Notes: generated by a model not told the origin, from the letters alone. DNA of 64,000 bases from Pyrococcus horikoshii OT3 (GCF_000011105.1 NC_000961.1:1164662-1228661), one strand, 5' to 3'; positions 35,040 through 49,719 are shown, counted from the first letter of the stretch. Program-made: numbers and translations.

Positions 35040-35106
35040 TTTAATTATTTTTAGTGCAAAAGTTTTATCTACTAAGCCTTCTGATTTTCTTAAAGGAGGG
35101 GAAGTT

Positions 35107-37182
35107 ATGAGGGGATCGATTGCCATCATTATCACTATAGCCCTTATCACGGCCCCCGTCTCTGCTGTAAGCATGTTAGATTACTCGACAAACATCGTCA
35201 AGAGCTTCAGGGATATTTCAAAAACTGAGGACTTAAGCTTAATAGTTATGGCACTTTCCCTGGCCCTTAATAGAACCGAGAATCTAAATGAAGATGATGT
35301 CTGGAAGTTCACTAATGAACTTATAAACTGGCAGAATGAAGATGGAGGATGGGGATACTTTTTTGGAAGTATCAGCTCAGTTCCGGATACCAGTTTTGCC
35401 CTAATTGCATTAAGTAAGGCGAGAGGAGTTATAGGGGGAAACGCCAGTAGAAGGGTGAAGATAGAGAACTCTATAGTAAAGGGTGTAATTTACCTCGAGA
35501 GGACATTCAATGGAAATGGATGGGGGTACTTAAAGGGAATGCCAACTGATTATAGGAGCACATTACTCGCTTCTGCTGCGCTTGTGATGCTTGGAAAGGA
35601 TAGGGACTATGTTAGGGATGCATATAGGACTATAAAATCTAAGCTCCCCAATGATCCCTTCTCACTTTACTTGTGGGCGATAGTCACGAAGAACATCACG
35701 GGAGAGGTACCAAGTTCTGTAATAGAAAAGCTCAAGGAATTCCATAGAGATGAGGGAGAGCTTGCCGCAGCGACGTATTCATTGCTTGAACTTGAGGGGC
35801 TAACATTCGAAACAGCCTTGATGCTTTCGGAACTTGAAGATTATAGGAGTGAATGGACAAATATGTACTATCCAATATACTCCACAATGGCCTTTTCAAT
35901 AGTCTCGGAGAAGATAATAAAAGCAGGCGAGGATAAACTACTTAAGCTATGCTCCATTCTTCCCGAGCTACAGAATGAGGACGGGGGTTGGGGCCTTTAT
36001 AAGGATTCTTATTCTGATGTTATAGTTACCTATCACGTACTAAACTCCCTCAGAATTTGTAATCCGAGAAGCGATGCTGCGAGAAAAGGGCTGAATTTTA
36101 TGAGGAATAAAATGAAGGAAGCAGAGAGGGAAATTAGAAGTGACAAATATCTAAGAAAGGAATATCTTTACGCGCTTTTATCCCTAATAGAATATAACAA
36201 CCTCTCGAAGGAGGAGAGGGAAAATGCGATATCCTTAATAATGTCCTCGAAGTGGGAGAACAGCATAGGGAAGCAACCAAACATAGTTGCCTTAGCGATA
36301 AGAGCACTAATAGGCTTAGGAGTTCCTCAAAGTAACGAAAGGATCAGGGAAGGGCTTGAATGGGTGATGGAAAAAGAGGTAGACGGTGGATGGGGGTTCA
36401 TATTTAAAACTCCACTCGTTGAGTGGTACTTTGCCCCTACCTATTTGCACACCTTCGAGGTTTTTAATGCACTGCTACCGATCTTAGGGAAAGAGAAGCT
36501 AAAAGATACAATAGAATTTTTGAAGAAGAATGAGCCCGATATTGAATGGCAAAAGTTATACGTTTACGTAACCCTCATGAAACTGGGAGAAAAACCTGAG
36601 TGGAGTATTTCAATACCGAATGATTATTACAGCAGTCCAATCGTAGATGCCATGCTGATTGAATATTACGCCATATCTCCCGAGGTTCCCAAAGTGAATA
36701 TCTACACTATCCTCTCAGAGTTCAAGAATGGTAAAGTAGAGATCAGATCAGATAACGCCAAGCTTGCGATTATAGTTTCTAAGAACTTAGAGGCAACATT
36801 AAATTCAACGACAAAGATAAGGATAACCGAGCTATTAAGCATTCCAGATACGGGGAACTACGTAATAATAGGCCCTGTGGGAAGAATAGACGTCTCAAAG
36901 TACAATGGAGACGTTGGAATTAGCCTCAAGTTAGGAAAGTTTACGGTATGTGGAGTCCCATTGACAGGAGATGGAAACTTAGTCATAATTCCTGGAAGGA
37001 ACAGGAAAGGGGCCCTGCTACTTATTCTCTATCGTGGAAGGAACACGGATAAGATAGCAGAGTTAATTTTACAGCCAAAACTCCTAAAATACTTCCATGG
37101 AAAAGCCGTAATTGCTGAATGGAAGGATAGAAATAGGAATGGAAGGGTGGAGAGCGATGAGCTAATGGTTAAGTTCCTATGA
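35107..37182 (+). CDS. Secreted alpha/alpha-toroid protein (squalene-cyclase/prenyltransferase repeat) with EF-hand-like loop
   Basis: A 691-residue protein. The signal peptide is RGSIAIIITIALITAPVSA. The main body is an alpha/alpha toroid with QW-type repeats: WQNEDGGWGYF (76-85), GNGWGYLKG, LQNEDGGWGLYKD (near 287) and EVDGGWGFIFKTP (near 423). This fold occurs in terpene cyclases and in thioester-containing complement-like domains; no cyclase DxDD or QxxDGSW acid is obvious, so binding is more likely than catalysis. The last 25 residues hold DRNRNGRVESDE, a perfect EF-hand calcium loop pattern. GGAGGGGAAGTT precedes ATG 35107. The cetZ start follows after 12 bases. Confidence 0.75.
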   Translation: MRGSIAIIITIALITAPVSAVSMLDYSTNIVKSFRDISKTEDLSLIVMALSLALNRTENLNEDDVWKFTNELINWQNEDGGWGYFFGSISSVPDTSFALIALSKARGVIGGNASRRVKIENSIVKGVIYLERTFNGNGWGYLKGMPTDYRSTLLASAALVMLGKDRDYVRDAYRTIKSKLPNDPFSLYLWAIVTKNITGEVPSSVIEKLKEFHRDEGELAAATYSLLELEGLTFETALMLSELEDYRSEWTNMYYPIYSTMAFSIVSEKIIKAGEDKLLKLCSILPELQNEDGGWGLYKDSYSDVIVTYHVLNSLRICNPRSDAARKGLNFMRNKMKEAEREIRSDKYLRKEYLYALLSLIEYNNLSKEERENAISLIMSSKWENSIGKQPNIVALAIRALIGLGVPQSNERIREGLEWVMEKEVDGGWGFIFKTPLVEWYFAPTYLHTFEVFNALLPILGKEKLKDTIEFLKKNEPDIEWQKLYVYVTLMKLGEKPEWSISIPNDYYSSPIVDAMLIEYYAISPEVPKVNIYTILSEFKNGKVEIRSDNAKLAIIVSKNLEATLNSTTKIRITELLSIPDTGNYVIIGPVGRIDVSKYNGDVGISLKLGKFTVCGVPLTGDGNLVIIPGRNRKGALLLILYRGRNTDKIAELILQPKLLKYFHGKAVIAEWKDRNRNGRVESDELMVKFL

Positions 37183-37194
37183 GGTGATTCAAAG

Positions 37195-38292
37195 GTGCGG
37201 GCGATAATAATAGGGATAGGTCAGTGTGGGACGAAGATAGCCGATATATTTTCCCTGGTTGACTTTGAAGCCTTAGCTATAAACACTTCAAAAAGCGATC
37301 TCGAGTACCTAAAGCACATACCACCGGAGAGGAGAATTCTAGTAGGGGAGAGCATTGTCGGTGGAAAGGGAGTAAATGCAAATCCTCTCCTGGGAAGGGA
37401 AGCTATGAAAAGGGACCTTCCGATGGTCATGAAGAAAATATCTTCGCTCGTGGGATACGAAGATGTAGATATATTCTTCTTAACTTTCGGCTTTGGAGGG
37501 GGAACGGGAGCCGGAGGAACCCCAGTTCTTGCAGAGGCATTAAAGGAGGAATACCCTGACTCCCTAGTCGTTGCCATAGGAGCTTTACCATTAAAAGAGG
37601 AAGGGATAAGGCCCACGATCAACGCTGCGATAACCATAGATAAGCTGTCTAGAATAGTTGACTCGATAATAGCAATAGACAACAACAAGCTAAAGGAGAG
37701 CGATGAGGATATAAGCCAAGCCTATGAAAAGATAAATTATGCAATAGTCGAAAGAATAGCATCGCTTTTAGCCTTAATAGACGTTCCCGGGGAGCAGACC
37801 TTGGATGCGAGCGATTTGAAATTTGTACTAAGGGCCATGGGAAGCTTTGCAACGGTTGGCTATGCGAAAGCGGATGCCACAAAAATCAAGAGCCTTTCGA
37901 GGTTAATCATAAGATCCTTTGAAAACGAAGGACTTTACCTTGACGTTAACCTAGAATCTGCCCTCTATGGTCTAGTTGCAATTCACGGGCCTCCCGAGGT
38001 TTTAAAGGCTAAGGAGATATTCGATGCACTAAGTGAGCTATCCCAAAGGATTAGGGGAAAGCAGATATTCAGGGGATTCTACCCCGATCCCAGGGAAAGG
38101 GAAGTCGAAGTTGTCACGTTGCTTAGCGGAATTTACGAGAGTAAAAGCATAGAGAATATCGTGATAACTGCAAAGAGATATGCGAGAGAATTTATGAAAG
38201 CAAAGGAAGAGGGAGAAATGAAAAAGAGAGAATTACTTAAAGGTTTACCAGATTTTGAGGATATATATCCCGGTGAGGTAGATGAAGGTTAA
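37195..38292 (+). CDS. cetZ: Tubulin/FtsZ-family protein CetZ
   Basis: A 365-residue cytoskeletal GTPase. It has the N-terminal Rossmann start IIIGIGQCGTKIADIFS (4-20), T3-like VGGKGVNANPLLGREAMK, the tubulin signature GGGTGAGGTP (101-110), and GALPLKEEGIRPTINAAITI for the ribose loop. The Q-CGTK and NANPLLG forms fit CetZ (former FtsZ3) rather than FtsZ1/FtsZ2. CetZ proteins in haloarchaea control cell shape and motility. The start is GTG 37195 after GAGGTGATTCAAAG. It overlaps the next gene by 11 bp and lies in the surface/pilin-like cluster. Confidence 0.93.
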   Translation: MRAIIIGIGQCGTKIADIFSLVDFEALAINTSKSDLEYLKHIPPERRILVGESIVGGKGVNANPLLGREAMKRDLPMVMKKISSLVGYEDVDIFFLTFGFGGGTGAGGTPVLAEALKEEYPDSLVVAIGALPLKEEGIRPTINAAITIDKLSRIVDSIIAIDNNKLKESDEDISQAYEKINYAIVERIASLLALIDVPGEQTLDASDLKFVLRAMGSFATVGYAKADATKIKSLSRLIIRSFENEGLYLDVNLESALYGLVAIHGPPEVLKAKEIFDALSELSQRIRGKQIFRGFYPDPREREVEVVTLLSGIYESKSIENIVITAKRYAREFMKAKEEGEMKKRELLKGLPDFEDIYPGEVDEG

Positions 38293-38875
38293 AGATTCAG
38301 TAGAGGTTGCATTGGAGTTAAACGAGAAGGATTTGTACTCGCACATAGCTCATGAGAGTGCTGAGGATATGATAAGGATAATCTCATCGATGGATGCCGA
38401 GAGGGCCAAGCTAAGGGGAGAAGTAGTTTACCATCAGGATGATTGGGATCTTTTAATAAGGGAAAGGATAAGGAAGGGGAAGAGGCACACTGCATTCGAC
38501 TTCTACAACCCAATTTTACTGGATATTTGGGAGGAAAAAGTGAAGGAGGCTAAGAAGTCCTTGAGATTGCTGAAATACTTCATAGCAGGAATCGTTGGGA
38601 TTCTTGCGGTAACAGCCTTACTAATGGTTTATACTGGATATCCCATTATAATTCTTGGACTAGGATTGCTCCCGTTAGCACTTTTTGCTTATGACTACTT
38701 TCACGCGAAAGCCGATCTAGCTTATTATGAGCTCGTCCAATTCTTCATATACGAATTGAAAGAGATAATTAAGAAATTCGAGTTGGACAAGAGCAAGTAT
38801 CCAATTAAAATTTACAGCAGAGACTACAACGGAGTAGAATTTAAAAAGGGTGGAAAAGCCCTCATAAAAGCTTAA
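38282..38875 (+). CDS. Two-TM membrane protein between cetZ and the pilin-like genes
   Basis: A 197-residue protein. Cytoplasmic N-terminus of about 100 residues (ALELNEKDLYSHIAHESAED, KAxxRGEVVYHQDDWDLL), two adjacent TM helices (LLKYFIAGIVGILAVTALLM and YPIIILGLGLLPLALFAYDY), and a charged C-terminal tail with a basic end. ATG 38282 lies inside the last codons of cetZ, so its translation is coupled to CetZ. It is a plausible membrane tether or adaptor for CetZ; that is inference from position only. No family recognised. Confidence 0.7.
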   Translation: MKVKDSVEVALELNEKDLYSHIAHESAEDMIRIISSMDAERAKLRGEVVYHQDDWDLLIRERIRKGKRHTAFDFYNPILLDIWEEKVKEAKKSLRLLKYFIAGIVGILAVTALLMVYTGYPIIILGLGLLPLALFAYDYFHAKADLAYYELVQFFIYELKEIIKKFELDKSKYPIKIYSRDYNGVEFKKGGKALIKA

Positions 38876-38910
38876 ATATATTCATACCCAAGATTCCCCT
38901 AGTGGAAAAG

Positions 38911-39510
38911 ATGAGGAAGGGTCAGATATCGATAGAGTTCCTCTTCCTAATCACGGTACTCATGATAATGTTAATCTATTCTCTAAATAACGTAACGTTC
39001 ACTCGGGGTCCTTCCGTTGACCTTTTAGCAACGCAGATTAATATCGAAGAGAAATCCCTTGCTAATGCGATCTCCAATACGATTAGCCAAGTCTATTCCC
39101 AAGGCCCAGGGGGAAAGGCCACAACCTACATAACCCTGACCTACTTAAGAAACGAGGGGAATATAGAGAAAGCCTTCAAGATTTCAAATCCTGTAATTTT
39201 AGTATTCTACTCTAATGGGACGTACGTTGCGATAGTTGATGAGAATAACGCTAGCATTTATACCTATGGCCCCAACAAGAATGCGTTCTGGAGCTATTCA
39301 CTATACGCAAGGGATCTTTTAGCTAACTACACGGTCTTCGGAAATAAGCTTCTCGTCAACTTTGATGGAAATAAAAGGGAAATTGCCTGCCTAATTATAA
39401 AGCCCTCGGAAATACCTAAGAAGCTAAAGATAGTTGTTGAGTGGAATCCAGACTTAAGTACATCCTGGAGCTATAACTCCGGAGAGCTTAAGATAGTAAT
39501 AGGTGAGTAA
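38911..39510 (+). CDS. Pilin-like protein 1 (class III signal, QISIEF)
   Basis: A 199-residue protein. It starts MRKGQISIEFLFLITVLMIM: a short basic leader ending in Gly, then Q-x-S-I-E-F and a hydrophobic stretch, the archaeal class III (type IV pilin-like) signal cut by EppA/PibD-type peptidase with the helix kept. The rest is an extracellular beta domain with several Asn-X-Ser/Thr sites. ATG 38911 is chosen over GTG 38902. A T/A-rich stretch with TTAAATATATT at about 38872 could be a promoter. The next gene starts after one base. Confidence 0.82.
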   Translation: MRKGQISIEFLFLITVLMIMLIYSLNNVTFTRGPSVDLLATQINIEEKSLANAISNTISQVYSQGPGGKATTYITLTYLRNEGNIEKAFKISNPVILVFYSNGTYVAIVDENNASIYTYGPNKNAFWSYSLYARDLLANYTVFGNKLLVNFDGNKREIACLIIKPSEIPKKLKIVVEWNPDLSTSWSYNSGELKIVIGE

Positions 39511-39511
39511 C

Positions 39512-39925
39512 ATGAGGAGTCAAGTATCCATAGACTTCCTCATAGCCCTAACGCTTGTAACCATAACAGCGTTAAACCTAATTAGCCTGGGCTTAACCCA
39601 AATGGAGGAGGCTAAATCCTTTGACCTGTCTAGCAAAGTGAAGGTGTTTGCCATAGATGTTAGGGATACCGTGACGAAAGTTTACAGTTGTGGGGAAGGG
39701 TTTGCGGTTAAAAAAACTTGGCCCTTCGAGCTGAATCCCGGGGATGAAATCATAGTTTCCCTCGAAACCTCAGGAATTGTGAACGTGACGCTTATAACGG
39801 GGGGAAAGAGGTATACGGTAATAGAGAGGCTACAGGTTCCGATAGCCGAGAATAGTAGTGTGATCCTAACAACAGAAAAGAGAAACTTCTGGATAAAGTT
39901 TGAAGGAGGAGTAAAGGTTGAGTAA
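39512..39925 (+). CDS. Pilin-like protein 2 (QVSIDF)
   Basis: A 137-residue protein beginning MRSQVSIDFLIALTLVTITA, a class III-type leader with S rather than G before the Q and Asp at the Glu+5 position. The ectodomain is short with paired beta strands (IIVSLETSGIVNVTLITGGK) and two Cys-free halves; one Cys sits at YSCGEGF. The ribosome binding site TAGGTGAGTAAC overlaps the previous stop; ATG 39512 is preferred over the upstream in-frame codon 39503. It overlaps the next gene by 8 bp. Confidence 0.8.
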   Translation: MRSQVSIDFLIALTLVTITALNLISLGLTQMEEAKSFDLSSKVKVFAIDVRDTVTKVYSCGEGFAVKKTWPFELNPGDEIIVSLETSGIVNVTLITGGKRYTVIERLQVPIAENSSVILTTEKRNFWIKFEGGVKVE

Positions 39926-40346
39926 AAGGGGACAGACATCCATAGAAGAGCTATTCATTCTGATAATCATATTAGCTGGGGCCATGGTGGTGATTCCAGG
40001 ATATCTAGACAACGATGCTAAGGCCAGTGTCGTGGTTCACGTTAAGGATGTTACCCGGGAGGGATGCGACTACTTGAACTTAGGAGTTATCATAAATGAA
40101 TCTAAGTATGCTCCCCTTAACGGGATCATTAATAGTTCTGTAAGGTGCTTCTTGAAGAGAATATCGTTTGAGGAGAATAAGAGCGAGATAAACGTGACGA
40201 TTTATGTAGAATCAAATGCCAACGTTAGTGAGGCCCTCAAGGAGTTCATCATAAACTCGCTTAGGGAGAGAGAGGGCTTCTCGTACTCTAATGGTGTATT
40301 ATCATACAGGGGAATCAAGGTGAAGGTGGAGGTACTTGAATCATGA
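39918..40346 (+). CDS. Pilin-like protein 3 (GQTSIEEL)
   Basis: A 142-residue protein starting MSKRGQTSIEELFILIIILA, a clear class III signal (RG|QTSIE). The ectodomain has two Cys (REGCDYLNLG and VRCFLKR) that could pair, and Asn-X-Ser/Thr sites. The start codon is TTG 39918, preceded by GGAGGAGTAAAGG and lying within the last codons of the upstream gene. Its stop overlaps the next start as ATGA. Compact size suggests a minor or initiating pilin. Confidence 0.8.
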   Translation: MSKRGQTSIEELFILIIILAGAMVVIPGYLDNDAKASVVVHVKDVTREGCDYLNLGVIINESKYAPLNGIINSSVRCFLKRISFEENKSEINVTIYVESNANVSEALKEFIINSLREREGFSYSNGVLSYRGIKVKVEVLES

Positions 40347-41773
40347 GGAGAGGACAATTACTATCTATAGATGCGTTGCTTTCACTCGTTGTCATGGCCT
40401 TCCTTCTAGCCTCACTAATCAACGTTTCATCTAACCTAAGGGGAGAGGTAGTTTCCGCAGTAAACTGGTTTAGTAGAAGCAATATAGCCGAGAACATGGC
40501 CGATGTACTTTTAGAATCTCCCGGAGAGCCTGAAAATTGGAATGAAAATGTTAACTCAACAAATGTAGTTGGGCTTGTTAGCTCCCCTGGAATCGTTGAT
40601 TATGAAAAGTTGAAAACCCTTGTTAAAAATATAAACAACCCTAGAATTTTAAGTTCACTGTACAACCTAAGCCTTAAGAAGGACTTTCTAATTGAGTTCT
40701 ACCTTTCACTGGTTAACGTTAGTGTTTATGGTCAGTTTCCGAAGGTTTACATAGATAATATGACTTTTTCAAACCCAAGTGGAAAACCTCCAGGTGTAGA
40801 GTTCACAATCTCAAGCAAGGGAAACAGGGCATTTGAAGTTACATACTTAGAGCTAGTAAGAGAGGGAGTGAAATACATCAACGAGGAAGTTTTAGATTTA
40901 ACAACTGGAGCAAATCTTAATCTAGAAGATGGAGATAGACTAAAGTTTATTCTAGCAGAAGACGTAACTTTAACCGTTAAGAGAGCTAGCGGTGGGGGAA
41001 CGGTATTTCAAAAACAGATTCCAGCAGGAGCTGTCGTTGAGATCTTGGTTACAGGTCCCGAGGTTAGTAATTTTAAGCTAACGTTTCAGGGAAGCTGGAA
41101 CGTGTTTAAATTCACGGGACAGGGAAATGTCGTAGTCACGGTATCATCTTATTCAAATACAACCCCTGAAATTGTGGCAAATAAAACGTTCTATACAACT
41201 CTTTTAACCCTGGGAACGCCAACTTATTGGTTTGCTGTAATAAATGGAAGCCTAGTTACTGATAAGGACACAATACTAAGTTCAATGAACAGATCAGAAT
41301 GGATAGAACCAATTTATAGGATAGTAACGGTGGAGAGATTTGAGTACAACTTATCCAAGGGGCCCTCAGGTGAAGATCCACTAATTTATGGAGTTCTCTC
41401 CCAACCTTTACCTTCGGAAGCGTTCTTAATGGTTTCAGCTCCCAACACCCCAGGGAACGTTACATTCGTCACGGTTTCTGGTCCAAAGGTTAGGGGAGTT
41501 CTAGTCTATAGGGAGGAAAGCAACGATATACTTAGGGCTATTATAATTGAGGATAACAAAACTATCCTATACAGGGGAAACACATCTTCGATCTCGATAC
41601 CACTTGATAAGATATTTGACAGCTATGAGAACGGTATAATAGGGATGTGGCTTTATTCTACCACATGGAACAGGCAAAATGTAAATATTACCATAATACC
41701 ATCTATAAAATGGGTAATAAAACCAATGAAAGATCTAGCGTTGGTGAAGTTAGTGGTGTGGGATGATTCATGA
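40343..41773 (+). CDS. Pilin-like protein 4 with large ectodomain, 476 aa
   Basis: It starts MRRGQLLSIDALLSLVVMAF: basic residues, Gly, Q-L-L-S-I-D, then a hydrophobic helix, matching a class III signal with an Asp at +6. The 440-residue ectodomain is beta-rich and Asn/Ser/Thr-rich (FPKVYIDNMTFSNPSGKPPG, GGGTVFQKQIPAGAVVEILV). Start and stop are joined to both neighbours by ATGA overlaps. The N-terminus is clearly related to that of the next protein (SIDALLSL versus TLDALLSL), implying duplication. Confidence 0.75.
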   Translation: MRRGQLLSIDALLSLVVMAFLLASLINVSSNLRGEVVSAVNWFSRSNIAENMADVLLESPGEPENWNENVNSTNVVGLVSSPGIVDYEKLKTLVKNINNPRILSSLYNLSLKKDFLIEFYLSLVNVSVYGQFPKVYIDNMTFSNPSGKPPGVEFTISSKGNRAFEVTYLELVREGVKYINEEVLDLTTGANLNLEDGDRLKFILAEDVTLTVKRASGGGTVFQKQIPAGAVVEILVTGPEVSNFKLTFQGSWNVFKFTGQGNVVVTVSSYSNTTPEIVANKTFYTTLLTLGTPTYWFAVINGSLVTDKDTILSSMNRSEWIEPIYRIVTVERFEYNLSKGPSGEDPLIYGVLSQPLPSEAFLMVSAPNTPGNVTFVTVSGPKVRGVLVYREESNDILRAIIIEDNKTILYRGNTSSISIPLDKIFDSYENGIIGMWLYSTTWNRQNVNITIIPSIKWVIKPMKDLALVKLVVWDDS

Positions 41774-43869
41774 GAAGGGGATTCATATTTACCTTGGACG
41801 CTTTACTATCATTAATATTAGTTGTAACGGTACTAGCGTCAGTTGTTAGTATAGAAAATAGAGTATCCCAGGTTTATTTAACGTCAATGAGATCGCAGTC
41901 TAGGGATATAGCCAAAGAAATGCTAATGGTATTAAGAACCGTTCCTTTAAACGAAATAGTTCCTCCCGAGAAAATAGAGGAGTGGGAAGATAACGGGATC
42001 CTGGACAGTGATTTAGTTGACCCGAGCATGAGCCCATTAGATATAGTGGCCACCTACTGGGCGACCCAGAATATATATCCTGAAAAAAACCTGCGGCACA
42101 AAGCTGAAATTATCCTGGGGTACATCTTAAACGAAACCCTTCCAGGATACTACTACGAGCTCATGATAAATAATTATACGAGCCCGTACCTAAGGAAGGT
42201 TGGGGCTAATTATTCTAAAGCCCTGGAAGTTTCACCAGCAACCCTAGTCATGAGCGGCTACGCTTATAACCAGACGCCTAGGGGGTATATGGCAAGAGCT
42301 TATCTCACAAGGGTAACTACTATAAGAAAGGAGTTATATGGATGGATGAGAGTTTTAGCTGGCGGGTATTCTTATTATAACAACTTAAACAAGCTAACGA
42401 TAATTAGAAAAATATATCTACCTATAGACGCCAGAATAATGGAAGCTGATGGAAAATTTGTAACAAGACAGGGCGAATACTTGGAGCTATATATTAATGA
42501 CGTTAGGGTTGGCGGGGATTATGGTCAAATAAATATAGACGACTTAACTCCATATCTAAAACCTGGGGAGAATATAATAAAGTTAATATTCTCATCTTTT
42601 AGCTCACTTTTTAGAAGCCCACAAGACGAGATAGGATCAGCAAGTGGAACTACAATGTACGTTAAATACAAAACTCAAAGCTCAGAAGTAGAGGATCCAG
42701 GGATAGTAAAAATCTACAATGTTACCTCCAAAGAAACAGGGATAATGTATCTCCTGGAACTCTTTGTTCCAGGGAACATAACATCAATTTACATGAAATT
42801 TAAAGTTGATGGAGTCAGCTACGTTACCCTATACTATGGATTTGGAGGAAATCTTACTTTATTGCTGACTAAAACTCCACAGAACGGTATCGTGGAATTT
42901 ACGGATGATGAGATTAGAGATGCAGTAAATATGAAGATATGTGGGGGAAGAGATTGTTATGATGAATTTAAAGAAAACCTCAGCAAGATGGTCTTCGACT
43001 TTGTTCTCGGCTTCGATGCATATTATGACCCTGAGAGGGGAGAATGGAGATATGAGGGAAGAGATACACCCAATACAGGAACTAGAGTAATTTACGGATA
43101 TCCCGATTCTGAAGTTGTCATAAAGTACAAGCCAAGGATACTAATAACTAGGTATAGTATTCCCATTTCAATGTATTTCCCATATGGAGATAAGAGAGTA
43201 AGTTATCCAAGTAATGGGGAGTTTGGGAATACCGGACTTAGAGTTGAATATCAATTACCTTCAATCGCGGATCCATGGTATGCGGATTTCTGGGTTGGAT
43301 ACACATTTGTTGATTACACAACCATTCAAAATCTCTATGAAAATGGAAAATTATTCTATTCTGGACCTTTGGGTAGATATGCAATAAGGGTTGCCTACAC
43401 AAGGATTTATCCTTGGATGATGGTTCCCGGTCAGACAAATGTATTCGAAATTAAAATGACCAATGGTAGTTCATACGTAAGAGATGGAGAAACTAGGGGA
43501 GTAATTAAATACTTTATTCAGGCCTATGCTGGATATGGGAACATATTTCCAAAGTTCATTAGAACCGGATGTAAGGGATATAACATAACTTATTATTGGA
43601 TAGGGGATTCAAATCAACATTACGTGCTTGCCGGAGAAGAGCCTTATTGTAATCTAACAGCTGACGATCTGCTTGTGGGAAGAAATATTTATGCTGTTGA
43701 TGATGCAATAGTGAGGTTATTTAACAATCTCGGAGGAAATGGAACTAAGGATAGTCCGCTATTTGTGGAACTACCATCAAATGTCATGATCGACTTTGCA
43801 TCAATGGGAAACATTCCAGGATTGTTCACGCCAATTAGGATTACCCTAAGGGTTTGGAGGGAGAAATAA
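41770..43869 (+). CDS. Pilin-like protein 5 with very large ectodomain, 699 aa
   Basis: The N-terminus MRRGFIFTLDALLSLILVVT keeps the basic-Gly leader and a hydrophobic helix but replaces Q-x-S-I-E with F-I-F-T-L-D, so processing by the prepilin peptidase is plausible but not certain. The ectodomain of about 660 residues is rich in Tyr, Asn and Gly (GYAYNQTPRGYMARAYLTR, YYDPERGEWRYEGRD), with Cys pairs (KICGGRDCYDE, RTGCKGYN...EPYCNL) that could form disulphides. Its ATG lies in the previous stop (ATGA) and its stop TAA overlaps the next ATG by one base. Confidence 0.72.
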   Translation: MRRGFIFTLDALLSLILVVTVLASVVSIENRVSQVYLTSMRSQSRDIAKEMLMVLRTVPLNEIVPPEKIEEWEDNGILDSDLVDPSMSPLDIVATYWATQNIYPEKNLRHKAEIILGYILNETLPGYYYELMINNYTSPYLRKVGANYSKALEVSPATLVMSGYAYNQTPRGYMARAYLTRVTTIRKELYGWMRVLAGGYSYYNNLNKLTIIRKIYLPIDARIMEADGKFVTRQGEYLELYINDVRVGGDYGQINIDDLTPYLKPGENIIKLIFSSFSSLFRSPQDEIGSASGTTMYVKYKTQSSEVEDPGIVKIYNVTSKETGIMYLLELFVPGNITSIYMKFKVDGVSYVTLYYGFGGNLTLLLTKTPQNGIVEFTDDEIRDAVNMKICGGRDCYDEFKENLSKMVFDFVLGFDAYYDPERGEWRYEGRDTPNTGTRVIYGYPDSEVVIKYKPRILITRYSIPISMYFPYGDKRVSYPSNGEFGNTGLRVEYQLPSIADPWYADFWVGYTFVDYTTIQNLYENGKLFYSGPLGRYAIRVAYTRIYPWMMVPGQTNVFEIKMTNGSSYVRDGETRGVIKYFIQAYAGYGNIFPKFIRTGCKGYNITYYWIGDSNQHYVLAGEEPYCNLTADDLLVGRNIYAVDDAIVRLFNNLGGNGTKDSPLFVELPSNVMIDFASMGNIPGLFTPIRITLRVWREK

Positions 43870-46319
43870 TGAGGAGAGGTTTTATTCTTAATTCGGCAGT
43901 GTTAGTTCTCCTAATCCCCCTCCTTCTATTAGTTGCAACTTATGAAGATGTTTCTTCTTTCATCGTTAAGAGCCAAAGTGAGAGATTTCAATTAGGTAGA
44001 ACTCATGATCTTGTAACTTTCTTAGATTTAGAGTTCCAAAGAGCCCTTGAAATATCTGGGAAGAGGGCGGTAGTGACGATAGTTGATTATGTCTCCTTGA
44101 CTGGTAACTTCATAAACCCTAATTACATGGTGAATAACACCATAGCCGATCTAGTAAGAACAGGTTCATCCCCCTCAATATCTGGATATGATCCAACCAG
44201 GATAATGCAGGGTCAAACCCTAAGAAACTGGCTATCCAATATAAGTTCCCTGCTCATTGATCAGGGGTTCATCCTTTACCCAGACGACCAAACAATTTTA
44301 AAGAGCATTAAATTAAAAGTAGCTCCCTTGGACGCGTTTAGAATTATTATAAAGGGGTTTATTCCGAACATAACGATAAGAGATAAAAGCGGAAGAATTG
44401 TATACTCAGGTCCTATACCCTCAAATGGAAAGTACGCTTATTCAGTAGTTAGCATAGTAGACATGGAAGATCCATTCCACTCTGCGATGACTGGAGGTAG
44501 ATACCACCGCTCAATCAGGGTATGCAAACATTCGATTCCAGAATTTGGGCAAAGGCCTATTATATTGGCCAATGGAAGCGGGGAGAGCAACAAACCAGTC
44601 CTTTTAGGAAGATATGGAGAAACTTTGCTCTATAATTCCACGCATATTTATGACGATGAGGGGAATTATATAACTAACTTGACTATAAATGGAGTCAATG
44701 TTTCAACATCAGAGGTAATCAAAAATATTGGGGATATGGGAGTTATTGTGTTCTCAAATATCTCAGGGCAAAGCTATGGATGGTGTTCGAGCTTAGGATA
44801 CCGGGTTAATATAACGGTGACAAATAATCTGGGAGAGGATCTAACGGATTATCAGATCCCACTCTTAATATCAGTTGCAAAACTTCCATCTGATGTTGTT
44901 AATGCAATTTTTGAGAATACAAATTCAACTAACTATTCAGATATATTTAAGAATGGAGCAAGTATAGAAATTTACGATTCTTCATGCAATAAGATTCCAT
45001 TCTGGATAGAATATTGGGACCCTGTAAACAAGAAAGCTCTTATCTGGATCAGAGACTCAATCGGAGCTGGGCAGTCAAAGACATACTCATTGTACTTTGG
45101 AGAAGGAAATCCAACAAAAGGAAATGGGGACCAGGTCTTTTTATTCTTTGATGATTTCGAAGATGGCACGTGGGATGACAAGTGGTATGTCGTGGAAGAG
45201 ACACCATCAATTATTAACGGAGAGCTTTACATCCCAGGGGGAAATGAAACACTTGCAATAAGAACTAAGAGCTTCATAAACTATAATGGAGGATTTGCAG
45301 TAAGATTCAGAATGAAAGGCAAAATGAATGCAGATTTCGATGCAGGTATTGGAGTTGAAGATGTAACTGGTTTGATTTTGCTATTTACTGACGATTATTA
45401 CCCAGGGCAAGGTCTAGCTATTTGGTGGGCTGTTTCGGTTAGAAACTATTATTTATGGCTTCTTCAGAATTTTTATGATTATGGAAGAGAAGATATCACA
45501 ACTTATCATACTTATGAAGCTATTATAATTCCAGCCGGGATATTTCGGAGTGAAGTAACTTTTAAAGATTTAATGGATGCCTCAGGAAATTTAATTACTG
45601 GGAGAGATAATACCAATAATTATCTGATCTTCTTCTTCCCTCCAAGGTATCTCTATTTAGTCATTGATAGTGGAAGTAAAGTCAGAGGAGCATACTTTGA
45701 TTACGTCTTCATCCGCAAGTATCCGGAAGCTAATGGAGATCTACTTGATGATTCAATGGGATTTAGTGGAATAGCCCTAAATGCAGGGGATGTAGAGGAA
45801 AAACCGTTTATTCCAACAAAGAAGTCCCCAGGAGCAGCATACGATATACAGCCACTTATAGATTGTCTCCTAGACCAGAGGTACTTTGCGATAAAAGATG
45901 GATGGTCATTCTTCGAGAGACTTGAAGGAAGTAACAAAAATCACCTAGTTTATGAGAGGATGGCAAATGAAACTCAAGATGAATTGGGGATCTCATATAA
46001 CGGTAAACACTTCCCAATAGGCCTAGTGAGCTTTATGATACCATATGAAATATATGATAGGAAATTAGCAACCCTAATGATCGAGATCGGGAAAAATCCA
46101 AATGAGGAGAGAGTATCGAGTGCTGATTACTACTTCCTAACCTATTATTTTGGAGGTGGAAATAAGGTTGAGGGTTATAGGGTTTGGGGAATCTCATATG
46201 GAGTAACATCTGAAGGAGATCTCTCTAACATTCCTTTCTTCCTCGATCCTCAGACCGCCAAAGAGATCCTAGGAACCCAGGGAACTTGTGATTTATTAGT
46301 TGGTTATAACTGCAGGTGA
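43869..46319 (+). CDS. Pilin-like protein 6: DUF2341 and LamG-like ectodomain, 816 aa
   Basis: It starts MRRGFILNSAVLVLLIPLLL, a leader like the upstream two but without an acidic residue at +5. The middle holds a DUF2341 domain (YRVNITVTNNLGEDLTDYQI, SIEIYDSSCNKIPFWIEYWD, then GQSKTYSLYFGEGN, about residues 317-415), followed by a concanavalin/LamG-like beta sandwich (FFDDFEDGTWDDKWYVVEE, NGGFAVRFRMKG). DUF2341 occurs in surface proteins that may bind glycans. The C-terminal 200 residues are unassigned. ATG 43869 follows GGGAGAAATA; the ORF is open from 43854. Confidence 0.75.
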   Translation: MRRGFILNSAVLVLLIPLLLLVATYEDVSSFIVKSQSERFQLGRTHDLVTFLDLEFQRALEISGKRAVVTIVDYVSLTGNFINPNYMVNNTIADLVRTGSSPSISGYDPTRIMQGQTLRNWLSNISSLLIDQGFILYPDDQTILKSIKLKVAPLDAFRIIIKGFIPNITIRDKSGRIVYSGPIPSNGKYAYSVVSIVDMEDPFHSAMTGGRYHRSIRVCKHSIPEFGQRPIILANGSGESNKPVLLGRYGETLLYNSTHIYDDEGNYITNLTINGVNVSTSEVIKNIGDMGVIVFSNISGQSYGWCSSLGYRVNITVTNNLGEDLTDYQIPLLISVAKLPSDVVNAIFENTNSTNYSDIFKNGASIEIYDSSCNKIPFWIEYWDPVNKKALIWIRDSIGAGQSKTYSLYFGEGNPTKGNGDQVFLFFDDFEDGTWDDKWYVVEETPSIINGELYIPGGNETLAIRTKSFINYNGGFAVRFRMKGKMNADFDAGIGVEDVTGLILLFTDDYYPGQGLAIWWAVSVRNYYLWLLQNFYDYGREDITTYHTYEAIIIPAGIFRSEVTFKDLMDASGNLITGRDNTNNYLIFFFPPRYLYLVIDSGSKVRGAYFDYVFIRKYPEANGDLLDDSMGFSGIALNAGDVEEKPFIPTKKSPGAAYDIQPLIDCLLDQRYFAIKDGWSFFERLEGSNKNHLVYERMANETQDELGISYNGKHFPIGLVSFMIPYEIYDRKLATLMIEIGKNPNEERVSSADYYFLTYYFGGGNKVEGYRVWGISYGVTSEGDLSNIPFFLDPQTAKEILGTQGTCDLLVGYNCR

Positions 46320-46326
46320 TGGTCAA

Positions 46327-47064
46327 ATGAGCCTAGAAAACCTACTATACTCAATAGGTTTAGCTATGGAAAAGGTTTTCATCAAGATTAAAGAGTTTTT
46401 ATTACCAAAACCCACAGAAAATCCTGAATCCTTTAGATTCCTAAGAAAATTAGTGAAAAGAAACATCACATATCATGAGCTCGTAAGTTTGCGACTCCAG
46501 CTTATATTCATAATTTACCTTATCTCTTTACTTCTGATAACGATGTTATTAAAAGATCCTTTAACGCTACTTCTAACTTTTGTCATAGAGTTCTTGTACA
46601 TTAGGTACACGATCATCAGAAATTGGAACCTAATTATAGGGCCGAGAGCATACAGGTTTTTCTACTATGGAATTTCAACGATAACATTTGTAGCCTTTCT
46701 GGGTTATGTGCTCATTAGAAAAGTGGCAACAGAACTAATATATTACCTAACCTATATATCTTCAATTTTTGTGATAGTTGTTGTATTTAGATATTACTTC
46801 AAGCATAAGTTCGGTAGAGACTACACATACGGGATCATTGAAGAGGTGAAAGAGGACTTAGTTAGAGTTTTCGTTCACGATGATATAGCAGCTAACGTTA
46901 AGCCCGGCTATTACTGGGTTCCAAAGGTTAGCGAAGCTAAAGAAGGGGACATAGTAAAGCTACTCGTTGAGAATAGAACGTTTAGGAGCTCCATCCCAGT
47001 TAGGATCCTTGAGGTGTCTCAGTCCTCCCAAACTTCTACGGAACCAAAGGAGGAGAGCGAATAA
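46327..47064 (+). CDS. DUF2101 membrane protein
   Basis: A 245-residue protein. An amphipathic N-terminus (SLENLLYSIGLAMEKVFIKI) is followed by four TM helices between about residues 60 and 165 (LQLIFIIYLISLLLITMLL, LTLLLTFVIEFLYIRYTII, FFYYGISTITFVAFLGYVLI, LIYYLTYISSIFVIVVVF) and a cytoplasmic OB-like tail (GIIEEVKEDLVRVFVHDDI). It matches DUF2101, an archaeal family of unknown role. AGGTGATGGTCAA precedes ATG 46327, eight bases after the last pilin-like gene. It is a candidate membrane platform for that cluster by position only. Confidence 0.75.
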   Translation: MSLENLLYSIGLAMEKVFIKIKEFLLPKPTENPESFRFLRKLVKRNITYHELVSLRLQLIFIIYLISLLLITMLLKDPLTLLLTFVIEFLYIRYTIIRNWNLIIGPRAYRFFYYGISTITFVAFLGYVLIRKVATELIYYLTYISSIFVIVVVFRYYFKHKFGRDYTYGIIEEVKEDLVRVFVHDDIAANVKPGYYWVPKVSEAKEGDIVKLLVENRTFRSSIPVRILEVSQSSQTSTEPKEESE

Positions 47065-48215: not shown

Positions 48216-48782
48216 TCAAAGTTCTCCACAGAGCTTAGCGAAGTTCCTTAGAATTTCCTCTCCTTTTTCAGTGTGGGCAACTTCCGGATGGAACTGAACA
48301 CCGTAAATAGGTAATTCTTCGTGCTTCATAGCCTCTATGGGACACGTTTCGCTCCTTGCAAGGATCTTAAACTTGGGGGGAAGCTCTTTCACTTCATCCA
48401 TGTGACTCTCCCAGACCTTTAACCTCTTCGGGAGTCCTTTGAATATTTCATCCTCATCAATTATCTCGATCTCAACCAGACTGTACTCAGCTTTTTCTCC
48501 CCTCCCTACTTTCCCGCCGAAGAACTTGGCTATCAACTGATGACCTAAGCATATTCCAAGGATTGGAACGTTAAATTCATCGTAGTGCTCAAGGACCTTC
48601 TCACAGTTTCCCGTGTTCTCCAAGCTAGGCCCTCCGGAAAAGATTATTCCCTTAGGATTCATTGCCTTTATTTCTTCAAGGGGAGTTGTATTTGGAATTA
48701 TCTTTGTCTCAACGCCAAGATAACGGAGGGTCCTCCATATCCTGTGAACGTATTGACCACCATTGTCCATTATCACTATCAT
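48216..48782 (-). CDS. guaAA: GMP synthase, glutamine amidotransferase subunit
   Basis: A 188-residue class I glutaminase that feeds ammonia to the separate ATP-pyrophosphatase subunit to convert XMP to GMP. Triad and oxyanion motifs: [15 protein letters not shown], nucleophile Cys in [17 protein letters not shown], and His/Glu in [15 protein letters not shown]. Eukaryotes and bacteria carry this as a domain of one GuaA chain; archaea such as Pyrococcus split it. ATG 48782 is preferred, with GAGGGATTGGTG before it. It follows guaAB by ten bases in the same operon. Confidence 0.96.
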
Positions 48783-48792
48783 CACCAATCCC

Positions 48793-49719
48793 TCACTCAA
48801 ACTCTATTGTCGCTGGAGGCTTATTTGTTATATCGTAGAGAACCCTTCCAACCTCAGGGATCTCGCTCGTTATCCTGAAGGCTATCCTCTGCAGAACCTC
48901 CCAGGGGACGTTCATTGCATTGGCCGTCATTCCATCGATACTCTCGACGATCCTAACGGCTATCGTCTCCTTATAGGCCCTTATATCTCCCTGAACTCCA
49001 ACCGTCTTAACCCCTAGGAGGACGGCAAATGCTTGCCAGGGCCTTAATCCGGCCCTCTCAACTTCTTCCTCGACTATGGCGTTTGCCTCCCTAACGATCC
49101 TTATCTTTTCAGGGGTTACCTCCCCTATTACCCTAACAGCAAGTCCAGGCCCTGGGAAGGGCATCCTGTTGTATATCTTCTCGGGCAATCCCAGGAACTT
49201 TGCCAGCTCTCTAACTTCATCCTTGTATAGATCCCTCAATGGCTCGATGAGCTTAAGGTTTAACTTCTCCGGTAAACCTCCTACGTTGTGGTGGCTCTTG
49301 ATCTTTCCCTGACTCTCTATCCAGTCGGGAGCTATTGTTCCCTGGATTAAATATTCCGCTCCTATCTTCTTTGCAACTTCCTCAAATACCTCTATGAAGA
49401 CCCTCCCTATGATCTTCCTCTTTTCCTCGGGATCCGTTACACCCTTGAGGGCCGAGAAGAACCTATCCTGGGCGTCGACGTAGTGGAGGTTCATTCCGAA
49501 CTCATCCCTGAACGTCTTAACCACGAACTCTGGCTCACCTTTCCTTAAGAATCCAGTATTCACGAATACCGCATGCAATCTGTCTCCTATAGCTTTATGG
49601 GCTAAAACTGCCGCCGTTGAGCTATCCACACCACCTGAGAGTGCGATTATAGCTTTAGAGTCCCCTACAGTCTCCCTAATCTCCCTAACCTTCTCCTCAA
49701 CGAACCTTCCCCAATCCAT
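48793..49719 (-). CDS. guaAB: GMP synthase, ATP-pyrophosphatase subunit
   Basis: A 308-residue PP-loop enzyme that adenylates XMP and replaces the adenylate with ammonia. The PP-loop is [20 protein letters not shown] (about 23-42). Further conserved segments are [46 protein letters not shown] and, near the end, [20 protein letters not shown] with the dimerisation domain before it. The ATG follows the purP stop directly (TGAATG), so the three genes purP-guaAB-guaAA form an operon for late purine synthesis. Confidence 0.97.

Follow-up and report, generated by a model that had tools for sequence, protein, structure and literature searches.

Six adjacent plus-strand genes, here called P1–P6, occupy positions 38911–46319 of a 64,000-nucleotide stretch of the Pyrococcus horikoshii OT3 genome (GCF_000011105.1 NC_000961.1:1164662-1228661; "the window" below denotes this whole stretch). 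The locus belongs to the archaeal clade-1 type IV pilus system, of which it forms the Thermococci part (PMC4858521), and we suggest that its six products are minor pilins that most likely form a complex initiating the pilus tip, with P6 as the cap, or first subunit (probability roughly 0.6). Tip location, cleavage, docking order and ligand are inferred. The trait on which this reading turns is the first acidic residue of each protein, whose position, counted from the residue that follows a short basic leader (+1), is fixed by gene.

Acid register of the six predicted minor pilins

The genes are listed here with a slash at the predicted cleavage site.

38911–39510, plus strand: P1, small pilin, 199 residues; MRKG/QISIEF, acid at +5; Pfam Class_IIIsignal, E 8.7e-06; Q at +1 and E at +5 in 31/31 relatives
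39512–39925, plus strand: P2, small pilin, 137 residues; MRS/QVSIDF, acid at +5; Q at +1 and D at +5 in 30/30 scored relatives
39918–40346, plus strand: P3, small pilin, 142 residues; SKRG/QTSIEE, acid at +5; Q at +1 and E at +5 in 30/30 scored relatives
40343–41773, plus strand: P4, 476 residues; MRRG/QLLSIDALLSL, acid at +6; D at +6 in 30/30 scored relatives
41770–43869, plus strand: P5, 699 residues; MRRG/FIFTLDALLSL, acid at +6; D at +6 in 31/31 relatives; predicted beta-sandwich head
43869–46319, plus strand: P6, 816 residues; MRRG/FILNSAVLVLLIPLLLL, no acid from +1 to +14; N at +4 and P at +13 invariant in 31/31 relatives
44952–45188, plus strand: DUF2341 domain within P6 (residues 362-440); Pfam E 3.1e-20; optional lectin-like insert

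Neighbouring genes overlap or are separated by at most one base, and the six are therefore read as one unit. The initial annotation had described a run of pilin-like genes of these sizes, and both the lengths and the N-terminal strings that it quoted were reproduced exactly. In the 31 Thermococcaceae genomes examined, a ten-gene order that includes P1–P6 is always present, except that the first gene was missed in L056 and the last in L036.

Residues +1 to +6 are nearly invariant within each of the six families. The Thermococcaceae consensus is [KR][GA]/Q-x-[STA]-x-[ED] for P1, P2 and P3, [KR][GA]/Q-x-[LF]-S-x-D for P4, [KR][GA]/F-[IV]-F-T-L-D for P5 and [KR][GA]/F-x-x-N-S-x-x-L-x-L-L-I-P for P6. 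From P1 to P6 the acid thus stands at +5, +5, +5, +6, +6 and nowhere, in 31/31 relatives; a few loci were missed by the search pattern and carry the same residues on reading by eye. The 31st P2 (leader unscored) reads FG/QLSID, the 31st P3 TA/QTAIE and the 31st P4 EG/QIFSLDA. Sixteen further named Thermococcales loci keep the pattern wherever the start was read. Position -1 is G, A or S in every scored member of all six families, -2 is almost always K or R, and a hydrophobic helix follows the leader in all six proteins. The Pfam Class_IIIsignal model detects P1 above its cut-off and P3 below it, and leaves P2 and P4–P6 unmatched; the motif register of P4–P6 is shifted by one residue relative to the small pilins.

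Profile comparisons add relationships among the families. The N-terminal 67 columns of P2 match P1 (P 1.5e-10), and the match of P3 to P1 is confined to the helix (P 2.3e-6). The (S/T)(I/L)DALLSL stretch noticed earlier in the fourth and fifth genes reflects real paralogy, which extends over about 120 residues of the stalk (P = 1.6e-8) and rules out the notion that P4 and P5 are unrelated adhesins; P6 stands apart.

P6 is the only minor pilin of the set that has no conserved acid (31/31), and it lies at the 3' end of the cluster in all Thermococcaceae examined. The initial annotation had seen in the six starts a signal motif that fades along the run, with the acid at +5 lost by the last gene. 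P6 indeed has no acid, but from P4 onwards a hydrophobic residue occupies +5, and P4 and P5 carry their acid at +6 instead, as the annotation's own strings QLLSID and FIFTLD show. The fading itself did not survive, since residues 1-40 are the most conserved part of P6, with 70% pairwise identity across 32 species; a degenerating signal motif was therefore ruled out. Rising size, proposed at the same time, proved incidental and was discarded as an ordering principle, P6 being shorter than P5 in 5 of 30 genomes. The suggested division into three small pilins and three large, adhesin-like ones, with a plausible place at the tip, is supported by the separate register of the large three and by the DUF2341 domain and sugar-binding fold matches of P6; the gradual loss gave way to a pattern that is discrete and fixed.

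The length of P6 ranges from 363 to 1180 residues across relatives, and where P6 is long this is because of an optional insert with DUF2341. The domain was found in 27 of 32 P6 proteins and is missing where P6 has 363-458 residues; in these five species P6 is still present with its N-terminal helix. DUF2341 was therefore rejected as the defining mark of the tip protein. That of P6 is the only one found in the genome. P4, too, has constant ends and a variable middle. In L061 and L065 this middle carries apparent bactofilin-like beta-helix repeats, an unusual module for a secreted pilin head. The P4 gene of L059 (G028) contains an in-frame TAG, which may mark a pseudogene, stem from faulty sequencing or reflect phase variation, and a contig labelled as a Thermoproteota metagenome-assembled genome (L119) has a Thermococcus-like P4-P6 cluster, through either a binning error or transfer.

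The same order in other archaea

A parallel operon was found in a methanogen-like genome. In other Methanobacteria it starts with a prepilin peptidase, a +5 pilin, a membrane protein and a +5 pilin on the opposite strand, and continues with a P4-like gene (acid at +6, ~285 residues), a P5-like gene (+6, ~695 residues), a P6-like gene (no acid, ~340 residues) and a further +5 pilin. Each of the three large Pyrococcus pilins found its counterpart as the best match of the set: P4 with P 5.5e-12 over 114 columns, P5 with P 5e-11 over 225 columns and P6 with P 2e-9 over 199 columns. Judged by these comparisons, P4, P5 and P6 are one-to-one orthologous to the Methanobacteria trio, with the same gene order and the same acid positions. 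Several Methanobacteria (L066, L104, L106, L108, L110 and L113) have, at a second site, a separate pair of P6-like (no acid) and P4-like (+6) genes. The pair has no further pilin genes next to it in L066 and L104, which hints that two proteins may suffice as a minimal unit.

Of 297 archaeal genomes, 154 gave a match to a P4-like profile, as did 69 of 167 genera. Hit regions were collected from about 35 families besides Thermococcaceae and Methanobacteria, and the neighbouring genes were scored for the position of the first acid; the central gene was picked by homology and the flanking genes were not, and genes with no detectable pilin-like start were excluded from the scoring. The gene 5' of the P4 relative has its acid at +5 in 21/25 families, the gene 3' of it has its acid at +6 in 23/28 families, and the second gene 3' has none in 21/22 families; the recurring order around P4 relatives is +5, +5, +6, +6, none. 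Clear examples are L171, L175, L176, L180, L182, L190, L192, L195 and L208. Fisher tests on the family-level acid positions gave 4e-11, 3e-10, 4e-10 and 2e-8, values that are indicative only, since a family may count in two classes, starts were chosen by rule, genes lacking a pilin-like start were excluded and species are not independent. Many of the genomes in this test are small (0.6-1.3 Mb).

It is conceivable, though we hold the idea only tentatively, that archaea share an ancient tip-initiating cassette of one acid-less cap, two +6 subunits and several +5 subunits, with the assembly order written in the N-terminal helices. Within such a cassette, Phe or Tyr at +1 above a +6 acid and Gln at +1 above a +5 acid may form a simple assembly code. 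The P4 relatives of Methanobacteria start with Phe and are an exception to the +1 part of this code; a strict rule of Gln versus Phe at +1 is broken by them and was dropped.

A proposed tip-initiating complex and its alternatives

Because growth of the filament takes place at its base, the tip is made first. When a bacterial pilin is added, its Glu5 neutralises the N-terminus of the subunit above (PMC10191384), and the tip complex built by bacterial minor pilins has GspK or ComGG, both lacking Glu5, as its cap (PMC10790768). Most type II secretion systems (T2SS) and type IVa pili have only one minor pilin that lacks Glu5; in T2SS and Gram-positive pili this protein is also larger and encoded 3' in the cluster, and this set of traits has been put forward as a hallmark of the subunit that comes first (PMC5207764). 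P6 in the window combines all three: it has no acid, is larger and is 3'. Under the bacterial Glu5 rule, acid loss would therefore mark the first subunit and not a failing pilin.

We propose that a prepilin peptidase would cut each protein after its short basic leader, whose last residue is Gly, Ala or Ser, and that the membrane helix behind it would become the filament core. P6, with no acid near its N-terminus, would need no subunit above it and would come first, as the cap. P5 and then P4 would dock below, their +6 acid neutralising the N-terminus of the subunit above, and P3, P2 and P1 would join the tip complex to small +5 major pilins of about 70 residues encoded elsewhere. The long heads of P4-P6 combine a constant stalk and C-terminus with an exchangeable middle, including the lectin-like DUF2341 module; as interchangeable, lectin-like cargo they would bind surfaces, glycans or other cells.

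AlphaFold models of the single chains, built with 16 aligned sequences for P6 and 13 for P5, have mean pLDDT (predicted local distance difference test) values of 84.9 and 81.4. The P6 model begins with one helix (residues 2-78), a long stalk; strands and, at the C-terminus, a helical part follow. The N-terminal helices of both models are of low to middling confidence. Among the matches listed, the solved structures nearest to P6 are concanavalin A (ConA)-like and other sugar-binding beta-sandwiches, which cover part of the head only, and the P5 model has weak, partial matches to sugar-binding beta-sandwich proteins such as BcsB. A profile search of P6 against PDB sequences returned nothing credible.

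Several observations speak against a tip complex capped by P6. In the model of Makarova, Koonin and Albers (2016; PMC4858521), the minor pilins are located near the base. The 50 listed PDB matches of the P6 and P5 fold searches include none of GspI, GspJ and GspK. Sizes rise from P4 to P6 in only 25 of 30 genomes, so that P6 need not be the largest protein; nor is it always the last, as the +5 pilin gene after the P6-like gene in Methanobacteria shows. P5 and P6 have F at +1 and not the Q that is thought to favour EppA. An important caution comes from the archaellins of the same genome, which have no acid at +5. Our literature search found no experiment on the P1–P6 proteins.

In a rather unlikely alternative, the minor pilins sit at the base or are scattered on the shaft as spacers or decorations, and the tip adhesin is the DUF2341 protein alone, bound there without polymerising in the manner of PilY1. 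This is close to the published model (PMC4858521), P6 does carry DUF2341, and a non-polymerising protein could equally do without the acid. However, P6 has the same boundary of leader and G/A as polymerising pilins, its most conserved sequence is in the helix, protein and helix persist in the 5/32 species that have no DUF2341, and many families keep it immediately behind two +6 subunits. On another, unlikely view, P4-P6 are membrane-anchored surface receptors, with an uncleaved or ordinary signal helix, that are co-regulated with the pilus and not part of it. The non-Gln +1 of P5 and P6, the missing acid of P6, the very large heads and a cleavage that is only predicted would all suit anchors. 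Yet the short basic leader ending in G/A is invariant, the motif register is shared with the small pilins, and a clean order of +5, then +6, then none is hard to explain for unrelated anchors. Searches of the genome found a single prepilin peptidase, next to a small +5 pilin at ~407 kb; it is probably tolerant, because it must also cut the archaellins, which have no Q at +1.

The +6 acid may set the docking register or may reflect a shifted cleavage site. If P4 and P5 were cut one residue later, their acid would really be at +5, only P6 would differ, and the shift would reflect variation of the cleavage site and mean nothing mechanically. The [ST]-x-[DE] pair does move by one residue as a block, as if a residue had been inserted at +1, but the invariant G/A immediately precedes the Q or F, cleavage behind which would violate the G/A rule at -1, and the extra residue is always Q in P4 and always F in P5. 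We regard the later cut as distinctly unlikely and favour the docking register, because the G/A before +1 is invariant.

Neighbouring genes, remaining machinery and known systems

The genes and elements around P1–P6 in the window are the following.

35104–37182, plus strand: squalene-cyclase-like secreted protein; Pfam SQHop_cyclase_C 3.5e-09; 30/31 relatives
37195–38292, plus strand: CetZ tubulin-like GTPase; Pfam Tubulin 1.9e-29, CetZ_C 6.6e-16; 31/31 relatives
38282–38875, plus strand: membrane protein of 197 residues, before P1 in 31/31 relatives
38872–38879, plus strand: TTAAATAT box, probable TATA element of a promoter for P1 onwards
46327–47064, plus strand: DUF2101 membrane protein, the next gene; Pfam E 8e-96; after P6 in 30/31 relatives

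A TTAAATA-like box lies about 32-40 bases 5' of P1, with similar spacing in most of 14 relatives; because it recurs, P1–P6 probably have their own promoter, separate from that of CetZ. Just downstream of the cluster, at 48216-49719, are genes that we take, from our own reading of the sequence, to encode GMP synthase subunits; similar genes also lie near the parallel operon of L067.

The rest of the pilus machinery is encoded elsewhere in the genome. An operon at ~582 kb contains a DUF515 protein, a KlbA-like T2SSE secretion ATPase with an intein and two TadC-like T2SSF platform proteins. The intein of the platform-operon ATPase (L075:7588-11028) contains a homing endonuclease. Two more small +5 pilins were found at ~695 kb; counts of pilin genes for the genome rest on family searches.

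Within the literature searched, the acid-position pattern, for which no earlier report was found, the cross-family order, the orthology of P4-P6 with the Methanobacteria trio and the assignment of P6 as cap are new. The last would move minor pilins from the base, where the published model has them (PMC4858521), to the tip. Across archaeal families, the gene-order rule predicts which subunit would be first, second and third, and it could serve as a marker in the search for archaeal tip adhesins, also in lineages with small genomes, whose pili may mediate host contact.

The clade-1 locus type (PMC4858521) comprises minor pilins, DUF2341 adhesins and FtsZ-family (CetZ) and squalene-cyclase neighbours, with major pilins of ~70 residues encoded elsewhere. 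Its set of minor pilins, DUF2341, FtsZ-family GTPase and squalene-cyclase-like protein is matched at P1–P6, and the genome likewise has the secretion ATPase, two TadC proteins and small stand-alone pilins. Relative to the passages of PMC4858521 consulted, the acid pattern, the cross-family order, the P6 cap and the optional nature of DUF2341 are additions made here; the association of CetZ with the locus has already been published (PMC9856176).

A related experimental system is that of Methanococcus maripaludis, whose pilins have Q at +1 and E at +5 (PMC3875500). Published descriptions place eppA in the epd operon beside Q+1/E+5 minor pilins and a DUF2341 gene; the ATPase and two platform proteins are at a separate locus, as here (PMC3875500, PMC10133366). 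Insertions in the eppA-epd operon, including in the DUF2341 gene, block natural transformation (PMC10133366). The epd operon is needed for piliation and DNA uptake in that species (PMC3875500, PMC10133366). Since DNA uptake in the related methanogen depends on this operon, the same subunits may form the end of archaeal competence pili that binds DNA or surfaces.

The bacterial sets GspH-I-J-K, PilH-I-J-K and ComGD-GE-GF-GG also comprise one acid-less product, usually larger and encoded 3', and several acid-bearing partners. The archaeal cassette differs from them in its two +6 subunits and its far larger heads, and showed no homology to them in the fold searches with P6 and P5; we therefore do not claim membership in the GspHIJK family, but a similar way of working. 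For an acid at +6 in just the two genes before the cap, we know of no bacterial counterpart. P6 resembles PilY1-type adhesins in having DUF2341, yet 5/32 orthologues have no such domain. In Streptococcus sanguinis, a lectin-bearing modular pilin and a partner that lacks Glu5 have been modelled at the tip; its PilA-PilB-PilC proteins join modular pilins with ConA-like lectin or von Willebrand factor A heads to a Glu5-less subunit (PMC9934059). The acid-less subunit of that complex is small, and the lectin is borne by a subunit with Glu5, whereas in Pyrococcus the acid-less P6 itself has the lectin-like module.
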